Shown: positions 11,630-24,660 of the stretch, in pieces
How positions within the stretch are numbered: the first letter of the stretch is position 1
How the letters are laid out: each line of letters begins with the position of its first letter
NCBI GenBank assembly: GCA_017962085.1
Contig: JAGCWA010000032.1
Coordinates: 1-64,000 of the forward strand
DNA from: Paludibacteraceae bacterium
GTDB lineage: Bacteria > Bacteroidota > Bacteroidia > Bacteroidales > Paludibacteraceae
DNA: 64,000 nt
Direction of reading: 5' to 3'
The notes under the pieces: generated by a model
The model's input: the letters and a program-made list of their open reading frames with translations, nothing else
What the model was told of the DNA's origin: nothing
The model's database searches: none
Program-made: the position numbers and the translations under genes

Positions 11630-12070
11630 TCATTCATGTTCATGCTCATGTTCATGCTCATCGTCATCCTCCTCTTGCGTGATTGTTTTCACATCAGTGG
11701 TGGAACGTCCGTTGGCGTCAGTGACGGTCAGTTTCAGCTTGTCGCCTTCGACAACGCCCGTGCCAGCGATATCGACATGCACATGGAAGCCGTCGATGTT
11801 AAGCACACCGATGTACTTGCTGTCGGTCACAGGCTTGCTCACCTTAACCTGTCCGTTTGAAGCGTCGCAGACCTCGATGAGAATAGCGGCCGTACGTCCC
11901 TCCGCCTTAACATCCGCCTTGACGCAAATCTCATCCCCCTCGATGTTCGCCTCGTCCAACGCTACCGTCGGAGCGGCAGGATCATCGTCGTCGTCGCCAC
12001 AAGAGGAGAAACCCAAGGAAAGCACACACAGAAGAGCCATCATGAGGCTCATATATTTTATATTTTTCAT
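11630..12070 (-). CDS. DUF4625-like lipoprotein with His-Glu repeat tail
   Basis: A 146-aa lipoprotein with signal peptide and lipobox (LGFSSC, Cys about residue 24), then a run of Asp. The core has KVSKPVTDSKYIGVLNIDGF and an immunoglobulin-like strand pattern, similar in plan to the downstream lipoprotein. The C-terminus ends DDDEHEHEHEHE, four His-Glu pairs, encoded by alternating cat/ctc-type hexamers that could slip. Such tails bind Zn, Cu or Ni. It sits 40 bp after the TonB receptor gene and suggests a periplasmic or surface metal-handling role. Confidence 0.8.
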   Translation of the reverse strand: MKNIKYMSLMMALLCVLSLGFSSCGDDDDDPAAPTVALDEANIEGDEICVKADVKAEGRTAAILIEVCDASNGQVKVSKPVTDSKYIGVLNIDGFHVHVDIAGTGVVEGDKLKLTVTDANGRSTTDVKTITQEEDDDEHEHEHEHE

Positions 12071-12110
12071 ATCGTTTTAAATTTTAAATATTTGATAATT
12101 AAATAATTGA

Positions 12111-14195
12111 TTAAAAATCCAGTCCCACCTTCATGGACAAGTTGCGCCCCGGCTCCGGCACGTCTATGAGGCGGTAGTAACTGGTGTGGTTGTAATAGCG
12201 GCGATTCAGCAGATTGTCCGCATGAAGCGTCACATTCAGCTTGCTTCGTCGCAAAGGGAAAGACTTGCCGGTGGAGAAATTGAGGGTCCAATAACCGTCT
12301 GTCGGTTTTTCAGGAGGTACAATCTCGTCTTGACGGCCCACCACGTGAGCCTTCAGACCAACGAAACCGTCGCCTTTCCAATTGTATTTATAGGTCAATC
12401 CAGCATCCGTGGACCATGGCGGGGTGAATGGCAGCGTATAGCCCTTCTTCTCCCCCGATTTCTGGCGGGCATGGAGGTATTCCCCTTGCAGGAGCGCCTC
12501 CCAATGTTTCGCGAAGGTGTAGATCATCTGAGCCTCCCAACCCAACCGTAAGACGCGCGCCTGCGTATAGTTGTAGAGCTGAAGGCCCTCCACATAGCGT
12601 GACGTCGGACTCAGGTAAATATAGTTGGAGAAATAGTTCAGGTAGGGATCCACCTGCACAACTAACGCATCATTCGACCAAGAGAGTCCCAGGTCCAATT
12701 GGTAGGACTTTTCAGGGTCCAGCCGCACGTTGCCACGCTCATAGCGGAAGATATGGTAGTTGATACCGTTGGCGCCCAGCTCTTTCGGAATAGGCATACG
12801 GAATCCGCTACCCGCATTCGCCTTGAAGACCCAGTGCCCCACGTTGTAGTTGGCCCCGAACGACCAGGATAGGTTGTGGAACTTACGGGCCAAATCGGTA
12901 GAGCGCTCCAGACAGACCATCTCCGAGCCAACTGGTGTAGGATACCAGTCCTGATAGCCATGGATATGCGTCTTGGCGAAATCGAGGCGTGCTCCCGCAT
13001 TGAATATCAAGTTCTTGCGGAACTTGAAGCGGTCCATAAGGAACATGCCCAAGCTATTGGTCTCGAAGTCTGGTATGATAAAGCCCCATCCGCCACGACG
13101 GTTGTATTGGTACTCACCGTCCAGTCCGCCATGGAAAGCGTGCTTGCCCAGATGATACAGGGCCTGGTAATTATACGTGTAGGTGCTCTTGTTGAAACGA
13201 CGCTCCAAGGAGTTGTCCGGCTTAGGCATATAGCCATGGCTGACAGGCTCGGAAAGCTCCTCCCTGAAATTGTTCTGGTAGGCCACGTTCACCTCCATAG
13301 ACGTGCGTCCACAATACCATGAGGTGTGGCTATGCGACTTGAAGTGGTTCACCCACTGGTAAGGCAGGTCGACATCCCGGCGGGAGTGGTCATAATCTAT
13401 GTTAGACAATCGCACCTCCAGGCCGTGCGCATTGGCGAAGAAACCGCTCTTCGCGTAGGAATCTGACAAGCGTAGGCTCGTGCGAACCTTCCGCCCCGAA
13501 TAGCCTAACAGGAAGCTACCGTTCCGTTCGCAGCCCGCGGTGTTCCGCAACCGTCCGTCCTTCAGGCGGATCCAATAGGAGTAATATTGGATACTGTCCG
13601 TCGGAACCTTATAATCGGCGTAATCAATCCATGTCACATTGGCGCGGAAGTACCACCTTTCGCCTCTCCCGCCTATCTTAGCCGCCGCACCTATCTGACC
13701 GTTGTTCGTACGTCCGAACAACTGCACGGAACCCTCCAAGGAGTCCTTAGGCATTTGGTTAGAGCGCAGGAGGAGGACACCACCTATAGCGTCACTACCG
13801 TAAAGAAGAGCGGATGGTCCCTTGATGACCTCGGCCCGGTCGACGGAGAACTGGTCGATCTCCAGTCCATGATCATCGCCCCACTGCTGTCCCTCATGCT
13901 TGATGCCATTCTCCGAAACGACCATGCGGTTGTAGCCCAAGCCACGGATCGTCGGTTTCGACTGCCCGGAGCCTATCGAAATAGCCTTCACCCCCGGAAT
14001 GCCCTCCATCGTCTGCATCAAGCTGCCTGAAAAATTCAGTTGCAGATACTCTTGGTCGACATGGACGGAGGTCTGGGAGGAACGCATTTGAGGCTCAACG
14101 CTCTTACTGGCGCTTACGGTGACATCTTCAAGCGTGACGACAGTATCGGAGGACGCCGCCATGCTTATCATGGCGCCCAACAATATTGAAATCAT
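12111..14195 (-). CDS. TonB-dependent outer-membrane receptor, probable metal uptake
   Basis: The 694-aa protein has a short signal (MISILLGAMISMAAS), a TonB-box-like TLEDVTVSASKS, a plug domain (about residues 30-150) with TMEGIPGVKAISIGSGQSKPTIRG and RAEVIKGPSALLYGSDAIGG, then a 22-strand barrel ending in an aromatic (VGLDF). The plug phrase GQQWGDDHGLEID resembles receptors for metal ions such as zinc or copper. A stop codon 21 nt upstream in frame fixes the start. Neighbouring His-rich proteins support metal substrate; siderophore or vitamin uptake is possible but less likely. Confidence 0.9.
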   Translation of the reverse strand: MISILLGAMISMAASSDTVVTLEDVTVSASKSVEPQMRSSQTSVHVDQEYLQLNFSGSLMQTMEGIPGVKAISIGSGQSKPTIRGLGYNRMVVSENGIKHEGQQWGDDHGLEIDQFSVDRAEVIKGPSALLYGSDAIGGVLLLRSNQMPKDSLEGSVQLFGRTNNGQIGAAAKIGGRGERWYFRANVTWIDYADYKVPTDSIQYYSYWIRLKDGRLRNTAGCERNGSFLLGYSGRKVRTSLRLSDSYAKSGFFANAHGLEVRLSNIDYDHSRRDVDLPYQWVNHFKSHSHTSWYCGRTSMEVNVAYQNNFREELSEPVSHGYMPKPDNSLERRFNKSTYTYNYQALYHLGKHAFHGGLDGEYQYNRRGGWGFIIPDFETNSLGMFLMDRFKFRKNLIFNAGARLDFAKTHIHGYQDWYPTPVGSEMVCLERSTDLARKFHNLSWSFGANYNVGHWVFKANAGSGFRMPIPKELGANGINYHIFRYERGNVRLDPEKSYQLDLGLSWSNDALVVQVDPYLNYFSNYIYLSPTSRYVEGLQLYNYTQARVLRLGWEAQMIYTFAKHWEALLQGEYLHARQKSGEKKGYTLPFTPPWSTDAGLTYKYNWKGDGFVGLKAHVVGRQDEIVPPEKPTDGYWTLNFSTGKSFPLRRSKLNVTLHADNLLNRRYYNHTSYYRLIDVPEPGRNLSMKVGLDF

Positions 14196-14240
14196 ACTGA
14201 ATCTCTGTTTGAATTAAACTAAAAATGTACCTCTCTGAAT

Positions 14241-14585
14241 TCAAACAAAGGAAGGGGGACCGCGAGGTATTGGTAGGTTATAGACGTCAAGAACCAGGCT
14301 GTTCTGACGGTCAGTATATAAGATTTTAGTGATAGATGCGGAGAATGCGGAGATGCCGACAGCGGTGAGGAAGGACATCGTCAGGAACTGGCACAAGACG
14401 CAGGTATGCATGGAATCGCCCTGCGGCAGCAAGTGACCGGCGCAATTATGGCTGACGCACTCCTTGCAATCATGCTTCACCGTTTGCTCCTCGTCGTGGA
14501 TATGAAGCGAAGAAATAAGCAGCATAGGCACAAATACAAGTAAAAGCGCCCATGACTTAAGATATGTCTTCTGTTTCAAATCCAT
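14241..14585 (-). CDS. Small His/Cys-rich membrane protein of the metal-uptake operon
   Basis: A 114-aa protein with two hydrophobic segments (about residues 8-26 and 66-86). Between them is a soluble loop rich in potential metal ligands: SLHIHDEE, HDCKECVSHNCAGH and HTCVLCQF. Small proteins of this layout are often found upstream of metal TonB receptors in Bacteroidota. It is first in the operon. A -7 box (TAACTTTG, 14598-14591) lies 5 nt before the ATG, which suggests a leaderless transcript. The exact role (metal sensing, chaperoning or uptake accessory) is unknown. Confidence 0.75.
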   Translation of the reverse strand: MDLKQKTYLKSWALLLVFVPMLLISSLHIHDEEQTVKHDCKECVSHNCAGHLLPQGDSMHTCVLCQFLTMSFLTAVGISAFSASITKILYTDRQNSLVLDVYNLPIPRGPPSFV

Positions 14586-14590
14586 ATTGG

Positions 14591-14598
14591 CAAAGTTA
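14591..14598 (-). promoter_or_regulatory. -7 box 5 nt before the start of the metal operon
   Basis: TAACTTTG matches TAnnTTTG exactly. Its distance to the ATG at 14585 is 5 nt, so transcription would begin at or next to the start codon. No TTTG at -33 is evident. Confidence 0.45.
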
Positions 14599-14724
14599 TG
14601 AAAAAAAACGGAAAAGGTGTAGTTATTTCACGCAGAATAATTCAATTCAACACATCGCTAATAAGGCTATGCAAGTATAGATAAAAATATATACAAGAAA
14701 AAAGCAACACAATAATTATATGAT

Positions 14725-14791
14725 TGTGGTACCAGCGTGTAAGTGGGTTCTTGTCCACCCGCTGGCTTTTTTATTTATCTATCGTAATATA
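14725..14791. repeat. 67-bp direct repeat, copy 1
   Basis: Positions 14725-14791 match 16131-16197 with 4 mismatches in 67. Each copy contains a terminator-like hairpin and ends in atttatctatcgtaatata. The two copies bracket the winged-helix gene and the gene fragments after it. Confidence 0.85.
14732..14772 (+). terminator. Orphan terminator hairpin inside repeat copy 1
   Basis: CCAGCG (14732-14737) pairs with CGCTGG (14760-14765), an inner GTGG/CCAC pair extends the stem, and a run of six T follows (14767-14772). No plus-strand gene precedes it in this window, so it is orphaned or insulates the downstream promoter. Confidence 0.65.
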
Positions 14792-14818
14792 TATTTGCAC
14801 TATCTTATTCAAGAAAAT

Positions 14819-14884
14819 ATTTTGCCAAGTCAAATCATTTTAATATTTTTGCATTGTTTTAATGAGCATTAAAATGAAGCAAAA
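14819..14884 (+). promoter_or_regulatory. Consensus promoter overlapped by a palindromic operator
   Basis: TTTG at 14821-14824 and TATTTTTG at 14844-14851 are separated by exactly 19 nt, a near-perfect Bacteroidota promoter. At the expected start site lies TTTTAATG-AG-CATTAAAA (14857-14874), an 8-bp perfect inverted repeat, and outside it TTTTGC (14847-14852) and GCAAAA (14879-14884) form a second symmetric pair at equal 4-nt distances. The layout suggests repression by a dimeric regulator, most simply the winged-helix protein encoded next. Confidence 0.75.
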
Positions 14885-15855
14885 TGATTAAAACGAGAGA
14901 TGTTGTCATATTAGGAAGGCCCATACATCTGCAAGAACGGAGCAAGACGCAGATGAAAGGTGTCACCATCGGAGACTCATTGTCATACAAGTTCTACGAT
15001 GGAGAGTTCCATGGCATGCCATTGCTTTTCGCTGAGCCCAAAGGCAAGGTGGCTGCACCACGCAGCTTATCTGTCACGGCAAGCAATCTCACCTCATTGT
15101 TCCAGCTCCCCACTATCTTTATGTTGCCAGCATGTCCCGCATATGAACGGCAAAGGCTCATCGACAAAGACGTTTATTTCGTCGTCTCAGACAAATTCGC
15201 TCATTTGCCGATGCTTCTGGCTAATGAGCGGATTCGCAGAACCAAGTTGGCCAAAGCATTGACACCAGTCGCCCAATACCTGCTACTATATCACCTACAG
15301 ATAGAGAGCATCGAAGGACTGGCCGCACGTGACATAGAGAATAAAATACCGTATTCATACGCAAGCATTACACTTGGCATTACTTGTCTTGAAGACTTGG
15401 GGCTGTGTCGAAAAGTGGCGAATGGCTCAAAACGGAAGACCATCCACTTCGGCAAAGTTGGGAAGGAACTGTGGGAGCAAGCCCAACCCTTCCTTGACAG
15501 TCCTGTCGAAGAGCGCATCTACTGCGATGAGCTATTGTCTGAAGATCATTTCACGACATGTGGCATCAACGCCTTGGCTCACTACACATGGCTCAACCCT
15601 GATTCCGAAAGGACAATCATGATGACCGCCAAACAGCTTCGTGATTTCAAGGCATCAGGTCTCTTAATACGTCCCAATGAATTTGATGGCGGAATCATCA
15701 TTGAGGCATGGAAATACCCACCTGTCACCAGCATTGGCACAAAAGCCGAATGGGTGGACAGATTATCATTGGCCATCTCACTGCGTGAGGATGCTGACCC
15801 ACGAGTGGAAGGTGAAGTTGAACGATTAATAACTGAAACAGAATGGAAGGGTTAG
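14884..15855 (+). CDS. Winged-helix (MarR-like) protein, probable autoregulator of a lost two-gene system
   Basis: A 323-aa protein without signal peptide. The N-terminal part (about 1-115) is beta-rich with YKFYDGEFHGMPLLFAEPKG. The middle (about 125-205) forms a winged helix: LTPVAQYLLLYHLQIESIEG, then IENKIPYSYASITLGITCLEDLGLC. The C-terminus is acidic and helical. As I recall, homologues form operons with a nucleotidyltransferase-like partner, in the manner of type IV toxin-antitoxin pairs; here only 17 codons of an overlapping second frame remain. The palindrome at its promoter fits autoregulation. Precise function is not established. Confidence 0.75.
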   Translation: MIKTRDVVILGRPIHLQERSKTQMKGVTIGDSLSYKFYDGEFHGMPLLFAEPKGKVAAPRSLSVTASNLTSLFQLPTIFMLPACPAYERQRLIDKDVYFVVSDKFAHLPMLLANERIRRTKLAKALTPVAQYLLLYHLQIESIEGLAARDIENKIPYSYASITLGITCLEDLGLCRKVANGSKRKTIHFGKVGKELWEQAQPFLDSPVEERIYCDELLSEDHFTTCGINALAHYTWLNPDSERTIMMTAKQLRDFKASGLLIRPNEFDGGIIIEAWKYPPVTSIGTKAEWVDRLSLAISLREDADPRVEGEVERLITETEWKG

Positions 15856-15893
15856 AAAAATTCTTTCCAGATGCAATGCCCCAAGTTCGCTGA
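15843..15893 (+). pseudogene. 17-codon remnant of the overlapping partner gene
   Basis: An ATG at 15843 overlaps the 3' end of the winged-helix gene by 13 bp and reads MEGLEKFFPDAMPQVR before a stop at 15891-15893. The overlap and the MEGLEKF opening look like the start of the partner of this regulator family. The frame is cut near 15870, where a fragment of an unrelated gene begins. Confidence 0.5.
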
Positions 15894-16092
15894 CAGTCAA
15901 GCTAACGGGGCCTTCACTGTGGAACTGGAAGACTATATCAAGGATAGTGGCATAGATTACTGGATATATGGCCACTCACACTACAATGTAGATGTCGAGA
16001 TAGGCAATACCAAATGTGTGTCCAATCAGTTAGGATATGTATTTCATGGGGAGCATGAGTCTTTTGACCCATGTAAAAGTATCGAAGTGTAA
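15871..16092 (+). pseudogene. C-terminal fragment of a metallophosphoesterase gene
   Basis: The 73-residue frame contains IDYWIYGHSHYNVDVEIGNT and VSNQLGYVF, the hallmark C-terminal part of calcineurin-like metallophosphoesterases (GHSH provides metal ligands). The first about 180 residues of such an enzyme, including the D-H and GNHD motifs, are absent. The fragment is fused to the start of the partner gene of the winged-helix protein, so a deletion joined two genes. It is probably not functional. Confidence 0.75.
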
Positions 16093-16130
16093 CACCACAT
16101 GCATAAAAAACAACAAATTAGTTGTATATC

Positions 16131-16197
16131 TGTGGTGCCAGTGTGTAAGTGGATTCTTGTCCGCCCGCTGGCTTTTTTATTTATCTATCGTAATATA
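16131..16197. repeat. 67-bp direct repeat, copy 2
   Basis: Second copy of the repeat at 14725-14791 (63 of 67 identical). It begins 38 bp after the metallophosphoesterase fragment. Confidence 0.85.
16138..16178 (+). terminator. Terminator hairpin inside repeat copy 2
   Basis: CCAGTG (16138-16143) pairs with CGCTGG (16166-16171) using one G-T pair, followed by six T (16173-16178). The substitution relative to copy 1 keeps the outer stem pairable, which suggests selection on structure. It would end transcription of the winged-helix operon. Confidence 0.7.
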
Positions 16198-16262
16198 AAA
16201 GGCTAAGCGGCAAAGTTCAACGAAAGAATATCGGTTTTAATAATAAGACTTCTTATTTGTAA

Positions 16263-16805
16263 TCATATATCCGGTTCGGGCTCAGGGACATCCTCCTCAT
16301 GATATGCATGTTCACCATATTTCTCATAATAGAATGCATCGAAAAGCAACCAATCTTCTTTGGTCGGAGATATCTCTACTAGTGAATCTTTTCGAGCAAC
16401 GAACATATAATACATGATGGGTGGATCGTCATAGCCAGAGTAATCCTCACATCTGCTACTGTCTGATTTATTAAAGATATCCAAATTGATATATGCTCGA
16501 GCCAACGAATCGCATAGACCTTCATAGTGAACGATATGGTTTGAATACGAAGAACTGACGTTATAATAGTCTTTATGCAACAAATCGGAGATAGAAAGTA
16601 CAAAATAAGTGCTATCTTTCCCATACACAAAGACATCAATGATATCTTTATGTCCTGAGGAGTCCATACTAATCAATTTATCCACCTGCTTCTTTAATGC
16701 CTTTGAGCGAAAAGGGCTTGTGGGTTCTGTCTCCTTCAAGGATGGTTGAGCACAAGAAACAATTGAAAGGACTGTGATAATTATGGGGATAACTCTTTTA
16801 TACAT
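16263..16805 (-). CDS. Hypothetical lipoprotein (180 aa)
   Basis: The N-terminus MYKRVIPIIITVLSIVSCAQ is a lipoprotein signal peptide with Cys near residue 18. The mature part is acidic and tyrosine-rich (HKDYYNVSSSYSN, EDYSGYDDPPIMYYMF) and ends DVPEPEPDI. No known domain is recognised. It is the first minus-strand gene after the repeat-bounded relic and is AT-rich like the island behind it. Confidence 0.75.
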   Translation of the reverse strand: MYKRVIPIIITVLSIVSCAQPSLKETEPTSPFRSKALKKQVDKLISMDSSGHKDIIDVFVYGKDSTYFVLSISDLLHKDYYNVSSSYSNHIVHYEGLCDSLARAYINLDIFNKSDSSRCEDYSGYDDPPIMYYMFVARKDSLVEISPTKEDWLLFDAFYYEKYGEHAYHEEDVPEPEPDI

Positions 16806-16887
16806 GTTGCAATGTTTTTAACAAACTGTTTGTCGTTGACAAATTGGTGATTAGACCAAACTTTTCTAGTCCTCTTCAGTATCCGTA

Positions 16888-17289
16888 TTATTTGTCATAT
16901 AAATTCTCAATAGAATCACCAATATATATATATGATTGCGGACTGTTTTTAATGTTCAGCACGCTTAATGGTTGAGGATTATTTAATTTATGAATATTTT
17001 TGAGTTTAATTGCATAAGCAATCTTATTGCACTTGAAATATGACGAAAAAAATTCTTTTGAAATGCCTGATTGTTTCTTCGTCTTTTGCCAAACGATATC
17101 GGGTTTGTCAGAAATGACTTGTTCAACGTCGATTACTGCTACAATTTTCTTTATTGGACTAGTCGCATATACAATAATTTTATTGAGATTAGAAGGAACT
17201 TTTTTCCTATACTCATATGTTTTCTCTCCTGAGAATATTTTTTCTATATAACATGGATGTATTGATATGATGATATTTTTATTTTCCAT
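16888..17289 (-). CDS. PUA/ASCH-like domain protein
   Basis: A 133-aa protein opening with IIISIHPCYIEKIFSGEKTY, followed by EYRKKVP and YATSPIKKIVAVIDVEQVI. The fold signature (SIxPxYxxxIxxGxKxxEyRk and a strand IxxYAT) is that of ASCH/PUA-like RNA- or modified-nucleotide-binding proteins. The start overlaps the 3' end of the PIN-GNAT gene by 11 bp, indicating translational coupling. It is the third gene of an operon with an HNH protein. The domain is recognised from pattern; the ligand is unknown. Confidence 0.75.
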   Translation of the reverse strand: MENKNIIISIHPCYIEKIFSGEKTYEYRKKVPSNLNKIIVYATSPIKKIVAVIDVEQVISDKPDIVWQKTKKQSGISKEFFSSYFKCNKIAYAIKLKNIHKLNNPQPLSVLNIKNSPQSYIYIGDSIENLYDK

Positions 17290-18745
17290 ATGATAATGTG
17301 ATATATTGTTCGTTACTAATTTTTCTAATACTTTGTATATTCCCTTGAATTTTAGCGGAATGCAATTCCTTTGAAGTGATTTCTTTTTTCAGTGCAATAA
17401 ATCTGAATAGAATAACCAAAGTCTTTTTCTCTAGAATTTTTGTTATATCAGAGTATGAATAGACTGTTCGTTTAGCAATTCGAGGGAAAACCTCTTCGAT
17501 TTTATCAGAAATGAATGTGTCTTCAACAATTCCTATACATTGAATCGATTTTCTGTCTTTGCTACGATAGAATAATAGTATGTCTCCTTTCTTTACATGT
17601 TTTGTGTTGGCATGACATAGATATGCTTTCTTGATAGTATTACCTTGACAAGAATACATGTTTTGATCGCTTTCAAACAAGGAACCTTTTAAATCGCTAA
17701 AATCAGGGAATAAGTCTTCGTGATACTTTGGCTGAATTGGAACAATGAATTTTTGTACAGTATCATTGTCTTGGAAGTATGGATAATATTTTATTAAAGA
17801 TTCCAAACTGCCGAGATTCTCTTGCCTTAATTTCATGGATTTTATATATACATCGTCATTTTTGTATTTCCCAAGGCAATAGAATCCATATTCCTCACAT
17901 AAGCCTACTAATGTTCGTTGTTCATTTCCATAGGTATGTAAATAAACCCAATCAATATCATTTTTAACACAATAGTCAAAAGCGATATATAAAAGACGTT
18001 CACCCAATTTTTTCCCGCGAGCTGAAGGATCAACTTTGAAAGTGCATAATTTTAGAATCTTCCCCTTAACTACATCTCCGTCATTATCAAGCGGGGCATC
18101 TTCTTCATGTTTATAAATGCAAATACCTACAACAGCCCCCTTGTCATCTTCAATACACCAACATTTCCGCTGATTCTCGGCACTCTTCTGATACCAGTTG
18201 TCAAAACCTTTATACGCTTGACGTAGAGAGTCGAAAAAGGTCTGACTTTTGTCGATTTCGTACATGTAGCGTTCTTTAACTCCTGTATAAGTATAGGTTA
18301 CGACCTGATTAGAATACCGCCGTAAAAAAGCAAGAAACTGTTCTAACCGATACACTTTATCCTGAATGCCGACACAGGAAGCTTTCTTATGTATCCCTTC
18401 ATCGTTTGTCACCAGCACATGGATAGCACCACGATATAACGCAAACAGTAAGTTGTTGTCAACCTTATCATTATCATTGGATTGAGACAATGCTAATTCT
18501 ATGCGTTCTTCTTCCGAAAGAATAGGTGGATTATCAATTTTAGGATATTGATTTAAACGAGATAAAACGATAGTTTTCCTTTCCTGATTCTTGTCTCGAT
18601 TAATATCTGCAATTTGCATCGGATGAACATACAGACAATGTTGCTGTTCTGCCGCCAATCTTCGCAGTTCAGCAAAGGAGGAATCCAGTATTCGGCTGGT
18701 GTCCTCTAAGGGGATGATTATGTTTGTATCCAAAAGTATGTTCAT
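17279..18745 (-). CDS. PIN nuclease - GNAT acetyltransferase - PUA-like fusion protein
   Basis: A 488-aa three-domain protein. Residues 1-145 form a PIN domain: LLDTNIIIP with Asp6, acidic residues near 80-96, and VLVTNDEG with Asp115, the usual metal-binding set of PIN RNases. Residues about 165-305 are a GNAT acetyltransferase with the acetyl-CoA loop VDPSARGKKLGERLL (238-252). Residues about 370-488 look like a PUA/EVE-type domain (KKGDILLFYRSKD and IQCIGIVEDTF). It is co-transcribed with an HNH protein upstream (11-bp gap) and a PUA-like protein downstream (overlap). The combination suggests RNA cleavage or acetyl-group transfer to RNA or protein, possibly defence-related; not proven. Confidence 0.85.
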   Translation of the reverse strand: MNILLDTNIIIPLEDTSRILDSSFAELRRLAAEQQHCLYVHPMQIADINRDKNQERKTIVLSRLNQYPKIDNPPILSEEERIELALSQSNDNDKVDNNLLFALYRGAIHVLVTNDEGIHKKASCVGIQDKVYRLEQFLAFLRRYSNQVVTYTYTGVKERYMYEIDKSQTFFDSLRQAYKGFDNWYQKSAENQRKCWCIEDDKGAVVGICIYKHEEDAPLDNDGDVVKGKILKLCTFKVDPSARGKKLGERLLYIAFDYCVKNDIDWVYLHTYGNEQRTLVGLCEEYGFYCLGKYKNDDVYIKSMKLRQENLGSLESLIKYYPYFQDNDTVQKFIVPIQPKYHEDLFPDFSDLKGSLFESDQNMYSCQGNTIKKAYLCHANTKHVKKGDILLFYRSKDRKSIQCIGIVEDTFISDKIEEVFPRIAKRTVYSYSDITKILEKKTLVILFRFIALKKEITSKELHSAKIQGNIQSIRKISNEQYITLSYGK

Positions 18746-18756
18746 GAAATAATATA

Positions 18757-19665
18757 TTATTGTTTTTTTATTAATAAAGGATTAAGATCAGACAAATCGG
18801 AAGGAAACTTTATCCGTATATTGTCTTCCAAAGGAGAATGAGCACTATCTTCCAAAGGAGAATGTACGTTTAATCTCCTCCATTCCTTATATTCATTTAT
18901 TTGGGGGTCCGACAAACATATTGCATATTCAATGCCAAAAATATCAACAATAAAGTATATTTCTGCATCTACTATATCATCTGCTTGTTCCTCGTGGTTT
19001 TTAATAAAAAACATCATCTCAAACAGACGTTCTTCTATTATATTCTTTTTTGTATTGTATACTAAATATCCTTCCGAGTATATCCTTTGTTGATGGTAAT
19101 GCCAAAATTCCCCTTTGCCATATCTAGCATACTCCCTTAATCGTTTCAGTAAATCGTTCTCTTTACTTAATAATTCTTGTGCGCATTTGTTGTAATTTTC
19201 TTCCGAAAATTGATACAGGAAATATTCATATGCGCATTTTGCGAGAAAACGAGACATAATTATATTGGGATATTCAGGCTCATAAATATACGGAATACAG
19301 ATTTGCTTTATCCCCTTTGCTTTTATGTTCTCGTATAGTTCAACCTCATTTTCATCAATATGAATTATTAATCCATTCTCTGTGGTTTTTATAACAACTT
19401 CGGCATTCGTTGAAAGGTCAGGGAAAATAGCCTTTTGCTTTACATCTTTTCCTTTCTTTGTGGAGATTTCGCATCTGGATCGCAAAGAAACGAAATAGGG
19501 TTGTGCCAGCAATTCTTTCTCAATCTTTACGGCGAAGTAATTGTTGCATTGGTCACAAACATATCCTTGGGGCAAAAAATAATGTTTGTTCCCTAACGAT
19601 TCGGGAATAATATGTTCAATACTTTTTGAATTAGATGATTCCTTGTGACAAAAGATACAGTGCAT
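18757..19665 (-). CDS. HNH_5-type endonuclease-like protein
   Basis: The 302-aa protein opens with a zinc-HNH module: Cys3-x2-Cys6, the catalytic-type EHIIPE at 17-22, then VCDQC with Cys37 and Cys40 followed by NNYF. This arrangement is characteristic of HNH_5 family proteins. The remaining about 250 residues have no recognisable domain. It is the first gene of the HNH / PIN-GNAT-PUA / PUA operon. The HNH module suggests DNA cleavage; the target and control are unknown. Confidence 0.8.
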   Translation of the reverse strand: MHCIFCHKESSNSKSIEHIIPESLGNKHYFLPQGYVCDQCNNYFAVKIEKELLAQPYFVSLRSRCEISTKKGKDVKQKAIFPDLSTNAEVVIKTTENGLIIHIDENEVELYENIKAKGIKQICIPYIYEPEYPNIIMSRFLAKCAYEYFLYQFSEENYNKCAQELLSKENDLLKRLREYARYGKGEFWHYHQQRIYSEGYLVYNTKKNIIEERLFEMMFFIKNHEEQADDIVDAEIYFIVDIFGIEYAICLSDPQINEYKEWRRLNVHSPLEDSAHSPLEDNIRIKFPSDLSDLNPLLIKKQ

Positions 19666-19714
19666 ATATATTTTACAAATCCTTTTCTTGAGTTTTAATT
19701 ATATGTAGATTGGG

Positions 19715-19747
19715 TACTTTTGCTTATCTAATTTTTATACAAAAGTA
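19715..19747. promoter_or_regulatory. Inverted pair of -7 boxes upstream of the HNH/PIN-GNAT operon
   Basis: TACTTTTG (19715-19722) and CAAAAGTA (19740-19747) are perfect inverted copies 17 nt apart. The right one, read on the minus strand, is a TAnnTTTG box pointing toward the HNH gene. The symmetry could be an operator or two opposing promoters. Confidence 0.45.
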
Positions 19748-19831
19748 GAGGAATTTCGCCGAAATCTTTTTTTTATACATATATTTTTTCGTGATTATAG
19801 CCTTTTTTTATATGGTTTCATTGAATCCTCG

Positions 19832-20572
19832 TCATAATGGATGCGTGAACTTACAATGCGGATATTTTTCACAACCATAGAACCTTCCGTATTTCCCTTC
19901 ACGCAGTACAAGTCTTCCTCCGCAACGTGGGCAGTATCCGTTTTCTATGTTTTTTTGTCGATTATAAATTCGTGCTTTCACATTTATTATATGCTGATTT
20001 ATGTTCTCCTCTGAATTCTCATTAATAGTCAGTAATGTATTATATATTTTTTCTACTTGTATTGTTGAGAGCATTTCCTCTTGATATGAAAAAATCACGT
20101 CAATCGTTTGGTCCCAATAAATTACATGTTTAGTTGTCTTAATCTTTAATTCGGCATCTCGTGAAAAGGTTACGATTGAGATGAACGAATCAAATTGTAT
20201 GTCTTTAAGTATCTTTGAAAGTGCTCTAATATGTCCTTTATTCTGGAGCAATGGATTCCACATATTATGCTTGCTGCCATATATGTTTTGAGTCCAATAT
20301 TCACTATCTTCGCTTCCACATATCCATCCTGTATAATTTTTTGTTTCAATGACAAATATACCATGTTTTGAAACAACTATATGATCAATTTGAGAAGTAT
20401 GGTCTTTTTTATTGATAAGAAGATCATTTATGACTTTATATTTTTCAGGAGGTAATTTTGATAGGATTTTAGCAACATGTAGTTCGCCTGCTTTCCCTTT
20501 CGAAGGAAGCTTACTAATTCCTATTAATAAGGCTACAATTGATGCTATAAATATGAGATATAACACTCCCAT
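19832..20572 (-). CDS. NERD domain protein with membrane anchor and zinc ribbon
   Basis: A 246-aa protein: an N-terminal membrane helix (about residues 2-18), a NERD (nuclease-related) domain (about 25-140) with KAGELHVAKIL, SQIDHIVVSKHGIFVIETKN and YTGWI, and a C-terminal topoisomerase-type zinc ribbon (CPRCGGRLVLREGKYGRFYG, then CEKYPHCKF). The D-x(n)-E-x-K pattern (QIDH ... IETKN) matches the restriction-endonuclease-like core. Such proteins are frequent in mobile and defence regions. It lies between two other nuclease modules in this island. Confidence 0.88.
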   Translation of the reverse strand: MGVLYLIFIASIVALLIGISKLPSKGKAGELHVAKILSKLPPEKYKVINDLLINKKDHTSQIDHIVVSKHGIFVIETKNYTGWICGSEDSEYWTQNIYGSKHNMWNPLLQNKGHIRALSKILKDIQFDSFISIVTFSRDAELKIKTTKHVIYWDQTIDVIFSYQEEMLSTIQVEKIYNTLLTINENSEENINQHIINVKARIYNRQKNIENGYCPRCGGRLVLREGKYGRFYGCEKYPHCKFTHPL

Positions 20573-20622
20573 TTTCTATATCTTTCGATTTAATTCTGTA
20601 TTGAACTTTTTATATTGCACAT

Positions 20623-21504
20623 TTAATACTTCTGTTTCCCCGGTATCACCCCTCTCACTCCTCCCTTAGGGTTCTCCACATCGCCTTTGTAGCGTGGAAT
20701 CAGATGAATATGGACGTGAAAAACACTTTGTCCCGCAGCTTCGTTTACATTGATGCCAACATTGAAGCCATCGGGATGGAAACGATCCTCTAATATCTTT
20801 TTGCAGCGATTCGTTAATAGCCATAACGCTCGTTGCTCATGTGTGGTCAATTCAAAATAGTTGGACACATGACGCTTGGGGATTATTAGTGTGTGCCCTT
20901 GACTTACTGGATATCCATCGAAAAAGGCTACGGCTGTCGCTGTTTCGCTCACGATTTCCACCTTGGGGTTTAGACCGCAGAACGGGCAGCCTTGGGATGG
21001 ATTGTATTCTTTTTTGTAATCTGTTCTGTTGAAATGCCTATATTCGTAAATTTCACAGTTCTCATTCAAAAATAGGCTCTTGTACGGCAATATAACATTG
21101 CATTGGTACGTCGGTTGCTTATGGATGAAATGTGTGCGGAATCCTTCATGTTTCAAATCTCGTCGCACCGTGAAATAGGCAGTCCCTGTTGGCTTTAACA
21201 ATTCCGAAACAGACATCAACACCTCCGCTTGCTCTTCGGGTTCAAGAACGTTCAGAACATAGTTGCAAATAATGGTGTCAAATCTCTGGGTGGGATATTC
21301 AGGACGATAGTAGTTGTCGTAACCTATAATGTTGTAGCCTTCCGCCTTTAACTGGTCTGTGTCAAAACCATACCCGCATCCAAAATCCAAGATCTCACCT
21401 TGCAAAAGGTTGTTTTGTCTTAACCATCGTGTGGGGAACGAAATCGATGTCCGCTCCTTGGCTGTTAGGTGAGGGTTGTTTGTCTGTTTTTTCATGGTCG
21501 CCAA
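20623..21504 (-). CDS. Bifunctional class I SAM methyltransferase / HIT family protein
   Basis: The 293-aa protein fuses two domains. The N-terminal methyltransferase has ILDFGCGYGFDTD (motif I, about 38-50), IIGYDNYY and FDTIICNYVLNVLEP. The C-terminal half starts with CPFCGLNP and ends in the HIT signature HVHIHLIP (His263, 265, 267), a nucleotide hydrolase/transferase active site. Its start codon lies inside the upstream HNH gene (13-bp overlap), so the two are translated together. The methyltransferase part resembles phosphorothioation-associated methyltransferases in texture, but the substrate is unknown. Confidence 0.88.
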   Translation of the reverse strand: MATMKKQTNNPHLTAKERTSISFPTRWLRQNNLLQGEILDFGCGYGFDTDQLKAEGYNIIGYDNYYRPEYPTQRFDTIICNYVLNVLEPEEQAEVLMSVSELLKPTGTAYFTVRRDLKHEGFRTHFIHKQPTYQCNVILPYKSLFLNENCEIYEYRHFNRTDYKKEYNPSQGCPFCGLNPKVEIVSETATAVAFFDGYPVSQGHTLIIPKRHVSNYFELTTHEQRALWLLTNRCKKILEDRFHPDGFNVGINVNEAAGQSVFHVHIHLIPRYKGDVENPKGGVRGVIPGKQKY

Positions 21505-22544
21505 ATTTTAAAACCCATGTTTTCCGCAATCTGGACCATGGGTGAGAACGTTTTTCTGAAAACCTCGTAAAATTCAGTTTCTGACAGATGCACCAAATCC
21601 GAAACCGAATCGTAAACAATCAGATAATCCTCAAAGATAGCATTATTCTGGTTCTTTTCATACATTGTTTTCAGGGCATTTCTCTGAAGATTTGAGAATG
21701 GTTGTAGATAGATATCTAATGGAGGAAGATTATTGCTTTTCGAGGAATTGATACTGGAATCTGCAGGGATTAGATTCCACAAAAGATTATGCGACACAAA
21801 ACTCCATGGCACAAAATGATCCAAATCATAATTCTTCGCAACAATCGGTTTGCCTGTATAGATGCAACTCATGTGCCCGACGCTTTCGATGTAAGTGTCC
21901 CAGAACTTATGCTGCTTTGTCAACGATTCCCTTAAATTGGGTTTGATAAGCTTGGATGGGACATTTGGCACGTTCGGATTACGTTTCTGTAAAAACTCCG
22001 TGAGATTCCAAAACGCAAAATCACGTAGGATGGTGTAATTCTCCTTCAGATAATCAACCCAGGCTTCATTGATTACTATTTCGTCTCCATAAATAGCATA
22101 TATGCAACCATTTTCGAATCTCTGCGATTTGGCCACCACATCTTCATCATACGTGTATTTTATCCAAGGAGAGAGGAATCTGTATGGTACATTAAGAGAA
22201 AAGACTCTCAGAAATTTCTTCGTGCCATCAATATTATCCAATAACTGATTCTTGATTTTCTTTTTGTCTGAATCTATTGATATTTGGAACTCCTTCTGAA
22301 TCTCTAATGAGTTGCTGAACAACGAATCCGACTTCCCAAACGACAGCTTGAAATAATGGATGGGGTACCATGATTCAGCTACCATTCCTGCAATGATTTC
22401 CCAGAAAGAGATCCTTGTTTTCCTCTCTTTCACCACAATATCCATCAACGCCACAAACCAATAGAACTTATACGTGGCTGTGGTGTTATTGAAGATTCCG
22501 GCAAGGGCGGAGATGGGGAGGTGTGGGTTCTGTGGTAACAACAT
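21492..22544 (-). CDS. HNH endonuclease domain protein
   Basis: A 350-aa protein with a helical N-terminal part (about 1-220) and a C-terminal HNH nuclease: CIYTGKPI at 227-234, the catalytic DH in YDLDHFVPWSF (Asp242-His243), LLWNLIP (Asn257) and INSSKSNNLPP (Lys269). This is the Cas9-like/HNH_4 style of motif. It is followed by the methyltransferase-HIT gene with a 13-bp overlap. A nuclease and a methyltransferase so tightly coupled resemble a restriction-modification arrangement, but specificity modules are not visible. Confidence 0.85.
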   Translation of the reverse strand: MLLPQNPHLPISALAGIFNNTTATYKFYWFVALMDIVVKERKTRISFWEIIAGMVAESWYPIHYFKLSFGKSDSLFSNSLEIQKEFQISIDSDKKKIKNQLLDNIDGTKKFLRVFSLNVPYRFLSPWIKYTYDEDVVAKSQRFENGCIYAIYGDEIVINEAWVDYLKENYTILRDFAFWNLTEFLQKRNPNVPNVPSKLIKPNLRESLTKQHKFWDTYIESVGHMSCIYTGKPIVAKNYDLDHFVPWSFVSHNLLWNLIPADSSINSSKSNNLPPLDIYLQPFSNLQRNALKTMYEKNQNNAIFEDYLIVYDSVSDLVHLSETEFYEVFRKTFSPMVQIAENMGFKIWRP

Positions 22545-22578
22545 ATCTGTTTGTTAATTGAATTGCGTTTTACATCCC

Positions 22579-22586
22579 CAAATATA
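22579..22586 (-). promoter_or_regulatory. -7 box for the HNH / methyltransferase-HIT pair
   Basis: TATATTTG on the minus strand matches TAnnTTTG and lies 35 nt before the HNH start codon. No clear -33 element was found. Confidence 0.45.
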
Positions 22587-22776
22587 CCCTTTTTTTCTTT
22601 AATAAAGAGAGAAATCACCTCCGTACATTCAAACACGAAGTGAAAAAGATTTATAGGCCTAAAGAGTTCTCCCCTCCCCCCAAAAACAAACGCCACCGCA
22701 AGGACAAGCCCCACGATGACGTTCATCAATAAACAACCAATCTATCTATATAACAATTTTTCTAAGAATCTCTCTC

Positions 22777-24660
22777 CTACTCTACCGTCACGGACTTCGC
22801 AAGGTTCCTTGGTTGGTCAACATCCAAGCCTTTCGCCACAGCCACGTAATAGCTGATCATCTGCAATGGTATCACGCTGAGCAACGGTGCCAGACAAGCC
22901 AATGTGGATGGCACTTCCACCACATCGTCCACCATCTTGCTCACATGGTCGTCTCCCTCCGTCACCACGGCGATGATGTGGCCCTTGCGGGAAATCACCT
23001 CCTGCATGTTGCTGATGATCTTCGAGTATAACTGATGGTGCGTGGCAATGAAGACCACCGGCATCTCACTGTCCACCAAGGCGATCGGACCATGCTTCAT
23101 CTCTGCGGCAGGATAACCCTCCGCATGGATGTAGGAGATCTCCTTCAACTTCAGCGCACCCTCCAATGCCACCGGATAATTGTATCCACGACCTAAGTAG
23201 AGGAAGTTGCGGGCGAAGGTGAAACGAGAGGCCATGCGCTCGATCTTATCGCTCTGCTTCAGGATCTTCTCCATCTTGTCAGGGATGCGCACCAGTTCCT
23301 CCAAGGTCTCCTCGTACTCCTGCTGGGAAACGGTTCCCTTCGCCATGCCCAACGCCAAGGCGATCATCGTCAAGACAGTCACCTGTCCCGTGAAGGCCTT
23401 CGTGCTGGCCACACCGATCTCCGGTCCGACGTGGATGTAGACTCCCGTGTCGGTGTTGCGGGCGATGCTACTGCCTACCGCATTCACCACACCGAAGACC
23501 AAAGCGCCCTGAGAACGGGCCAACTCGATGGCCGCCAACGTGTCCGCCGTCTCACCACTCTGGCTGATGGCCAAAACCACGTCGTCGTGCTCGATGACCG
23601 GCTCGCTGTACCTGAACTCGCTGGCGTAGGCCACCTCGACAGGGATGCGGCAGAAATGCTCGATCAACTGCTTGCCGATCAAGCCCGCATGCCATGAGGT
23701 ACCACAGCTCACGATGATGATACGACGCGCGCGGAGCAGCTCGCGACGATGCTCCGTCACCGCACTCAGGACAACCGACAAATGGCCATCCTCGCTGTAT
23801 GGGTTATTGATGACACGGCCACACATGCAATCTCGCAGGACCGCAGGTTGGTCGAAAATCTCCTTCAACATGAAATGAGGGAAACCGCCCTTGTCCAACA
23901 TGGACAAATCGAGGTCCACTTCCTTCACCTCCATATCGGCCTGCTCGCCAGTCAGTTTCCTCACGATCAGATCCTTGCCTCTCTCGCAGACCACCATCTC
24001 CTCGTCGTTCAGGTATACCATCTGCTTGGTGTACAAAGCGATCGGACTCGCATCGCTGGCGATGAAGAACTCGCTGTTGTCCGGCACGACACCCACCACC
24101 ATCGGGCTACTCTTGCGGGCAGCCACCAATTGTTCAGGGTGACGACGGTCGATGACGCATATCGCATAGGCACCTATCACCTTGGTCAACGCCTTACGCA
24201 CGCTCGTGGCCAGGTCCTCGTTGCTCACGTTCATCGTGTACTCGATCAGTTGCACGAGCACCTCCGTGTCCGTCTGGCTCTTGAAGACGAAGCCCTTCGC
24301 CTCCAACTGCGTGCGGAGCGCCACATAGTTCTCGATGATACCATTGTGCACCAACGTCAGGTTACCGCTCTGGGATACGTGTGGATGGGCGTTCACCTCG
24401 CTCGGCACACCATGCGTCGCCCAACGGGTGTGGGCGATACCCAATGTGCCGGAAACGTTCTGCTTATCCGCAATCGCCTCCAAATCAGACACTTTACCTT
24501 TGGCCTTGTAGATAGCCAATCCTTTAGGCTTGCCCTTGGAATCTTCGTTGATCAATGCGCATCCAGCACTGTCGTATCCTCTATATTCCAGCCTATGCAA
24601 ACCGTCCATCAAGATCGGATAGGCATCCCTTGTTCCAATATATCCTACAATTCCACACAT
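22777..24660 (-). CDS. glmS: Glutamine--fructose-6-phosphate aminotransferase (isomerising)
   Basis: The 627-aa enzyme makes glucosamine-6-phosphate for peptidoglycan and LPS. Cys2 (MCGIVGYIGTR) is the class II glutaminase nucleophile. The glutaminase domain spans about 1-240, with two SIS sugar-isomerase domains at about 300-440 (IIIVSCGTSWHAG) and 470-615 (NFLYLGRGYNYPVALEGALK). The C-terminus NLAKSVTVE is the conserved end that lines the active site. Length is slightly above the usual 609-615. It flanks the accessory island on its core-genome side. Confidence 0.98.
   Translation of the reverse strand: MCGIVGYIGTRDAYPILMDGLHRLEYRGYDSAGCALINEDSKGKPKGLAIYKAKGKVSDLEAIADKQNVSGTLGIAHTRWATHGVPSEVNAHPHVSQSGNLTLVHNGIIENYVALRTQLEAKGFVFKSQTDTEVLVQLIEYTMNVSNEDLATSVRKALTKVIGAYAICVIDRRHPEQLVAARKSSPMVVGVVPDNSEFFIASDASPIALYTKQMVYLNDEEMVVCERGKDLIVRKLTGEQADMEVKEVDLDLSMLDKGGFPHFMLKEIFDQPAVLRDCMCGRVINNPYSEDGHLSVVLSAVTEHRRELLRARRIIIVSCGTSWHAGLIGKQLIEHFCRIPVEVAYASEFRYSEPVIEHDDVVLAISQSGETADTLAAIELARSQGALVFGVVNAVGSSIARNTDTGVYIHVGPEIGVASTKAFTGQVTVLTMIALALGMAKGTVSQQEYEETLEELVRIPDKMEKILKQSDKIERMASRFTFARNFLYLGRGYNYPVALEGALKLKEISYIHAEGYPAAEMKHGPIALVDSEMPVVFIATHHQLYSKIISNMQEVISRKGHIIAVVTEGDDHVSKMVDDVVEVPSTLACLAPLLSVIPLQMISYYVAVAKGLDVDQPRNLAKSVTVE

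Follow-up and report, generated by a model that had tools for sequence, protein, structure and literature searches.

The stretch of DNA analyzed here, called the window below, comprises positions 1 to 64,000 of contig JAGCWA010000032.1 from a Paludibacteraceae bacterium (GenBank assembly GCA_017962085.1). On its minus strand lie three consecutive open reading frames (ORFs), in reading order an HNH_5 protein (18757–19665), a PIN-GNAT-EVE fusion protein (17279–18745) and an ASCH protein (16888–17289). An initial annotation, made from the sequence alone, had proposed these genes as an operon and a candidate new system. The layout is as it claimed: by the ORF listing order and strand agree, 11 nucleotides (nt) separate the HNH stop from the fusion start, and the fusion stop and ASCH start overlap by 11 nt (17279–17289, minus strand). 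The same overlap is repeated in 12 of 14 related loci (L100–L113; L and G numbers denote fetched loci and genomes used for comparison). The comparisons below show that the fusion and the ASCH protein form a pair that is already described, and that the HNH gene is its recurrent but optional partner.

The fusion protein has 488 amino acids (aa) and matches the PADLOC model PDC-M11A over residues 2–483 of the 487 given (E-value 2.4e-134). Its PIN-like region covers residues ~1–140 (18326–18745, minus strand; limits estimated from alignments) and carries the acidic residues D6, D51, D96 and D115. Pfam assigns nothing to this part of the window protein at E up to 1; the PIN call comes from the motif and from relatives. 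Among 30 aligned fusion proteins, the window's included, Pfam recognized PIN_3 in three, PIN_12 in two, EVE in 12 and Acetyltransf_1 in 21 at E ≤ 0.01. In a larger alignment of 78 proteins, which left out those under 430 aa, D51, D96 and D115 are present in all and D6 in 76, with two gaps. The counts for D6 and D115 are biased because the retrieval patterns contained both regions; those for D51 and D96 are free of this bias. The earlier call of a PIN domain with intact acidic residues holds.

The GNAT domain follows at residues 161–294 (17864–18265, minus strand; Acetyltransf_1 at 161–288 with E 3.6e-9, Acetyltransf_10 at 183–294). The EVE domain lies at residues 379–481 (17303–17611, minus strand) and scores E 1.1e-3 and 19.4 bits, under the curated cut-off of 23; conserved sequence starts earlier, near residue 320. 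A GNAT domain and a PUA/EVE-like reader in one polypeptide, as first annotated, are thus borne out. In the GNAT loop G244-K-K-L-G248-E249 the two glycines and the glutamate are invariant in 78/78 proteins, and position 246 is Lys or Arg. Longer GNAT-PIN-GNAT-EVE fusions of 682–690 aa, each with ASCH after it, occur at L079:4488–6536, L220:6881–8938 and L203:6237–8309; those of L079 and L220 give only weak PDC-M11A matches. In all three the internal GNAT lacks the loop residues G244, G248 and E249, and a GNAT-like domain is present at the N-terminus, confirmed by Pfam in L079 and L220 and with a less canonical loop in L203. Since the internal loop was lost where an N-terminal GNAT was added, acetyl transfer looks to be needed.

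The overlapping gene had been annotated as a second PUA-like protein. The partner is indeed there and can be specified as an ASCH protein (133 aa; Pfam ASCH E 4.7e-7, PDC-M11B E 2.3e-39). Its nearest solved relative is ZmASCH (PDB 5gus/5guq), found with E 2.2e-11 by single sequence (5gus) and 1.4e-28 as a profile. The ZmASCH cleft residues Tyr47, Lys53 and Ser128 correspond to Y41, K47 and S119 in the window protein. ZmASCH binds nucleic acid and weakly cleaves single-stranded RNA (PMC5615036); with all three cleft residues shared, RNase activity of the window ASCH is putative. Another ASCH enzyme, YqfB, removes the acetyl group from N4-acetylcytidine with a Lys21-Thr24-Glu74 triad (PMC6972931). 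Residue E26 of the window ASCH is invariant in an alignment of 18 ASCH proteins. By an approximate placement of the YqfB motif, E26 presumably occupies the Thr position, and we do not favor a YqfB-like acetyl-eraser role because the nucleophile Thr seems replaced by this invariant Glu. Variations in the ASCH gene include a reversed gene order, with ASCH directly upstream of the fusion (L166, L167, L172, L179), and a fusion of ASCH to a helix-turn-helix (HTH) region on plasmids L216 and L217.

Distribution of the pair and its place among known systems

The window's own genome holds a single copy of the fusion. A family-level search of 200 genomes, own genome included, found matches in 19: 12 with the PIN part, six from the GNAT part onward only, and one weak match with stops. 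At class level 17 of 395 genomes, again including its own, gave a match, some of them weak and partial. From a scan of a species collection the best 80 of 385 relatives were fetched as loci, and all counts out of 80 refer to these. Of these, 64 have a recognizable ASCH gene: it follows and overlaps the fusion in 58, follows after a small gap in two and directly precedes it in four. The pair also occurs in an archaeal prophage: in psiM100 (L002:3995–5840) a PIN-GNAT-EVE gene lies mostly within the annotated inserted fragment IFa, with the ASCH gene (ORF5) just outside.

PADLOC places the window pair in its candidate system PDC-M11: the fusion matches PDC-M11A and the adjacent ASCH protein PDC-M11B, both near full length, while the window HNH matches no PDC-M11 model. 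A literature search by the name PDC-M11 gave no paper. Among open-licence PMC papers, Bell et al. 2020 (PMC7641849) was the only one recognized as directly about this family, for which it cites Iyer et al. 2013. It describes (PIN)-GNAT-EVE fusions with an ASCH neighbor as putative toxin-antitoxin systems, the PIN-GNAT-EVE form near type I restriction systems or other defense genes and GNAT-EVE without PIN in prophages. Those operons share with the window the domain order and the ASCH neighbor, and the type I restriction link recurs in relatives of the window pair. An AAA_17 ATPase, which is often present in them and not required, gave no match among the window neighbors scanned; Pfam finds one in L099. 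HNH is mentioned once in the excerpted text of Bell et al., for EVE-HNH fusions. The initial annotation's view that no system of this composition had been described therefore fails for the core pair, already covered by PDC-M11A/B and by Bell et al., and stands in part for the HNH gene; the exchange slot described below and the form with HNH add to what that excerpted text contains.

Three further systems invite comparison. Phage PhiR47_2 (PV340567) carries a GNAT-EVE gene annotated as ‘GevT toxin’ and an overlapping ASCH gene annotated as ‘GevA antitoxin’, with neither PIN nor HNH; both match the same PDC-M11 models as the window pair, and GevA and the window ASCH share 41% identity. VcaM4I, a proven type IV restriction enzyme (PMC7897488), combines an EVE reader and HNH in a single polypeptide, with no PIN, GNAT or ASCH named in the excerpt, whereas EVE and HNH are separate ORFs in the window. 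PrrC, an RNA-cleaving back-up gene linked to the EcoPrrI restriction locus (PMC12707154), resembles the locus only in how it might work. Septu (PtuA/PtuB) is not favored: the HNH protein gives only a partial PtuB match (E 0.0018), and no PtuA was found among the window neighbors scanned. The HNH genes of L104 and L220 follow an AAA ATPase that weakly matches PtuA.

The HNH gene and the exchange slot upstream of the pair

The window HNH protein (302 aa; Pfam HNH_5 E 3.7e-12) has intact CxxC, EHIIPESLGN and CxxCN motifs, and residues C3, C6, E17, H18, N26, C37, C40 and N41 are invariant in nine aligned sequences including its own. A search of solved structures with HNH alignments gave no relative. 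HNH genes of the same subfamily lie upstream of the pair in four of the 80 loci: L100 (gap of 8 nt), L101 and L104 (overlap of 1 nt each) and L170 (overlap of 4 nt), the last with a partial HNH at the contig start and a fusion only 36% identical to that of the window. Two more loci, L079 (genome G018) and L220 (Prevotella oral taxon 299), have the order HNH, 682–685 aa GNAT-PIN-GNAT-EVE fusion, ASCH. A methylase gene stands upstream of both trios (a type IIG match in L079, Eco57I in L220), and L220 also has an AAA ATPase; the ATPase-like ORF of L079 has just 77 aa. Besides the window, then, six Bacteroidota loci (one partial) spanning two fusion architectures have HNH directly upstream, and in all seven it overlaps the fusion or lies no more than 11 nt away. 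Among neighborhoods L080–L099 HNH is upstream in one of 20, L080, which is the same locus as L100.

Searches that started from the HNH protein used four partly overlapping sets of 200, 395, 395 and 384 genomes, the last at E ≤ 1e-12. Full-length relatives were found in three genomes (its own, G004 and G018), each time beside the pair. The remaining matches comprise the HNH domain or a partial protein only; that in G387 reaches residue 191 and lies away from any pair. Six of seven plasmid records were examined (Persicobacter was left out), and three have the HNH relative beside the pair, one of them truncated, and three do not. None of five viral loci has it beside the pair, and phage records gave no match to the HNH protein. 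On the alphaproteobacterial plasmids L216 and L217 an HNH relative (29–32% identity) is convergent beside a group of AAA ATPase, fusion and HTH-ASCH genes; the L217 copy lacks its first 30 residues and adjoins a transposase gene. An HNH_5 gene of a different lineage, split in two ORFs, sits between fusion and ASCH in L199.

The partnership of HNH and pair is thus recurrent but optional on both sides, because most pairs lack HNH and, in the stretches fetched, HNH relatives are also seen where the pair is missing. We therefore reject the idea of a new system that requires HNH, given its presence in just 4/80 relatives (one partial), and equally an HNH dedicated to the pair, since L184, L185, L218, L219 and L221 show HNH relatives with no pair in the stretches fetched. 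Of the conserved trio first proposed, HNH as a fixed member falls away and HNH as a recurrent partner remains.

What occupies the place of HNH elsewhere is seen best in closely related pairs. The fusions of L101 and L102 are sisters on the tree (support 100/99). Their DNA is ~85% identical up to within ~10 nt of the end of an HsdS-like gene and 94% identical from the first base of the fusion on; between these points L101 has HNH, and L102 a 285 aa protein and a GmrSD protein. The sister fusions L103 and L105 (100/100) differ in the same place likewise. An upstream gene could be scored in 77 loci. It shares the strand in 57 of them and lies no more than 100 nt away in 32, of which four are ASCH genes. 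Among the 28 tightly placed non-ASCH genes Pfam recognized Methylase_S (5), ResIII (3), DEAD (3), HNH_5 (3), GmrSD_N (2), AbiEii, Abi_alpha and an OLD-like family (1 each), as raw counts that overlap between families; some, such as GGDEF and ORF6N, have no defense link. These sequence comparisons mark the site just upstream of the pair as an exchange slot for restriction and other defense genes.

Genomic setting, mobility and selection

By blastn, two congeners (L072, L073) share sequence with the window on either side of 14595–20621 and differ from it in between. Within this AT-rich variable insert lie the trio and a NERD gene, along with unknown genes. The corresponding position is taken by a DdmD-like helicase gene in L073 and by genes weakly matching JetB/C/D in L072; L074 and L075 have a clear JetC adjoining the same right-hand flank gene, and L077 has SspD and PDC-S49. 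Inspection of L076 and L078, without a profile scan, recognized no defense gene there. The guanine-cytosine content in 1-kb windows, given by start position, is 30–38% at 16000–20000, 42–48% at 14000–15500 and 39–43% over the right-hand flank genes (20500–22000), and reaches 51–58% further out (12000–13500 and 22500–23500).

The trio recurs in another genus (L080, the L100 locus) with 87% DNA identity over 16885–19950 in different surroundings, and its proteins are 83–91% identical between the two. Ratios of nonsynonymous to synonymous substitution (dN/dS) between the window and L100 are 0.21 for HNH, 0.09 for the fusion and 0.12 for ASCH, which places all three under purifying selection. This conservation despite different surroundings, together with the selection on each gene, makes the trio more than a chance arrangement.

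Adjoining the trio at 19832–20572 is a NERD nuclease-like protein with a topoisomerase-type zinc ribbon. Only two separate pieces of this stretch align in L100, as if it had been internally deleted; since L100 keeps the trio intact, the NERD gene is unlikely to be part of the system. The same insert encodes a 323-aa protein (14884–15855) without a Pfam, NCBIfam or PADLOC match at E up to 1. Beyond the insert, a methyltransferase-HIT fusion and an HNH_4 (Cas9-HNH-like) protein (20623–22544) form a flank conserved in seven congeneric loci (L072–L078), in which the adjoining genes differ.

Candidate function of the locus

A defense or toxin role of these genes is plausible. The reading that best explains the data, to which we assign a probability of roughly 55%, is that the trio is a horizontally acquired defense cassette built on an abortive-infection-type effector/antitoxin pair, which would plug onto varied restriction nucleases, with HNH as an accessory nuclease. 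At its core would stand a PDC-M11 (GevT/GevA-like) pair resembling toxin and antitoxin, with the fusion as effector. The EVE pocket may grip a modified nucleotide, which probably resides in tRNA or another RNA, and so place the GNAT and PIN sites onto the target for acetylation and cleavage. The ASCH partner encoded by the overlapping gene would bind nucleic acid and restrain or regulate the effector, holding the pair silent. HNH, in a slot that other restriction genes fill in relatives, would act on incoming DNA as the first line, and the RNA-directed effector would be a back-up when this line fails, much as PrrC backs up EcoPrrI; acetylation, cleavage or both would then stop the growth of infected cells. 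The sequences themselves show the domains, the retained active-site residues, the gene coupling, the mobility, the swapping of slot genes and a setting rich in defense genes, whereas substrate, toxicity, trigger, the antitoxin role of ASCH and a joint action of HNH with the pair are inferred.

Several observations weigh against this reading. Most fetched pairs have no HNH, and on the fusion tree HNH is scattered, with three changes against a mean of 3.2 for shuffled labels. ASCH went undetected by profile in 16 of the 80 loci. Five of these have ≤31 nt after the fusion and one has 266 nt; the other ten have at least some 600 nt. The 11 loci with longer downstream sequence point to some pairs without a recognizable ASCH or to an ASCH too diverged for the profile. 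ZmASCH is itself an RNase, and the ASCH protein could therefore be an effector and not an antitoxin. No restriction-modification gene was recognized beside the trio among the window neighbors scanned. Scans for sigma-70 promoters and terminators were not above chance. A Bacteroides-type promoter pattern was likewise not above chance, with three matches in the window and none near the operon. In the literature we found no experiment on the fusion, and according to the excerpted Bell et al. 2020 no module of these systems had been characterized; the GevT and GevA labels are annotation in the phage record, and no paper on GevT was found.

The scarcity of HNH beside the pair also feeds an alternative we consider unlikely, in which HNH is a separate one-gene defense or selfish element that merely shares a defense island with the pair, so that the three genes would not form a single system. 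Most pairs lack HNH, HNH relatives stand without the pair in five fetched stretches, and the truncated L217 copy beside a transposase gene and the split L199 copy fit such an element. It accounts poorly for an HNH gene that immediately precedes the fusion, with an overlap or a gap of at most 11 nt, in seven loci and two fusion architectures, and for the pair alongside all three full-length HNH relatives in the Bacteroidota genomes searched. Distinctly unlikely is a type IV complex acting in trans, in which EVE and ASCH would read modified phage DNA and bring in HNH, in effect a split version of an EVE-HNH enzyme like VcaM4I. EVE-HNH fusions are proven type IV enzymes (PMC7897488; PMC7641849), a GmrSD-type protein replaces HNH in the sister locus and the window HNH motifs are intact; yet the locus encodes EVE and HNH in two different proteins, most pairs do without HNH, and the model needs neither of the fusion's two toxin-type domains.

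Bell et al. 2020 (PMC7641849) proposed that the PIN-containing fusion protects against GNAT-EVE toxins of phages, as an antidote degrading the RNAs that these have acetylated. The occurrence of GNAT-EVE without PIN in prophages and of PIN-GNAT-EVE near defense genes, reported in the same paper, agrees with this, as do the 6/200 family genomes that match only without the PIN part. We nevertheless regard it as very unlikely: the GNAT loop is kept in 78/78 PIN-containing proteins and an extra GNAT is present where it was lost, which would be odd for a pure antidote, and the PIN form is itself carried by the archaeal prophage psiM100.

Within the favored reading of an effector/antitoxin pair with an accessory nuclease, the PrrC analogy (PMC12707154) and the exchange slot lead to a more tentative idea, which we hold to be unlikely in its full form. 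The conserved RNA-directed effector pair may be a portable guardian, docked onto a resident restriction nuclease by exchange up to the effector start codon. The nucleases would be HNH_5, GmrSD, HsdS-bearing type I loci and helicase-nucleases, and the pair would fire when the nuclease is blocked or meets modified DNA.

The pair is widespread in bacteria, archaea and phages. L101 and L102 represent a natural swap, in which an almost unchanged effector pair follows one upstream nuclease or another, and their comparison bears on whether a functional link joins restriction enzymes to RNA-directed effectors, as for PrrC, or whether the two are mere neighbors. The variants with a decayed internal GNAT and an added one direct attention to acetyl transfer as a candidate activity of this family.

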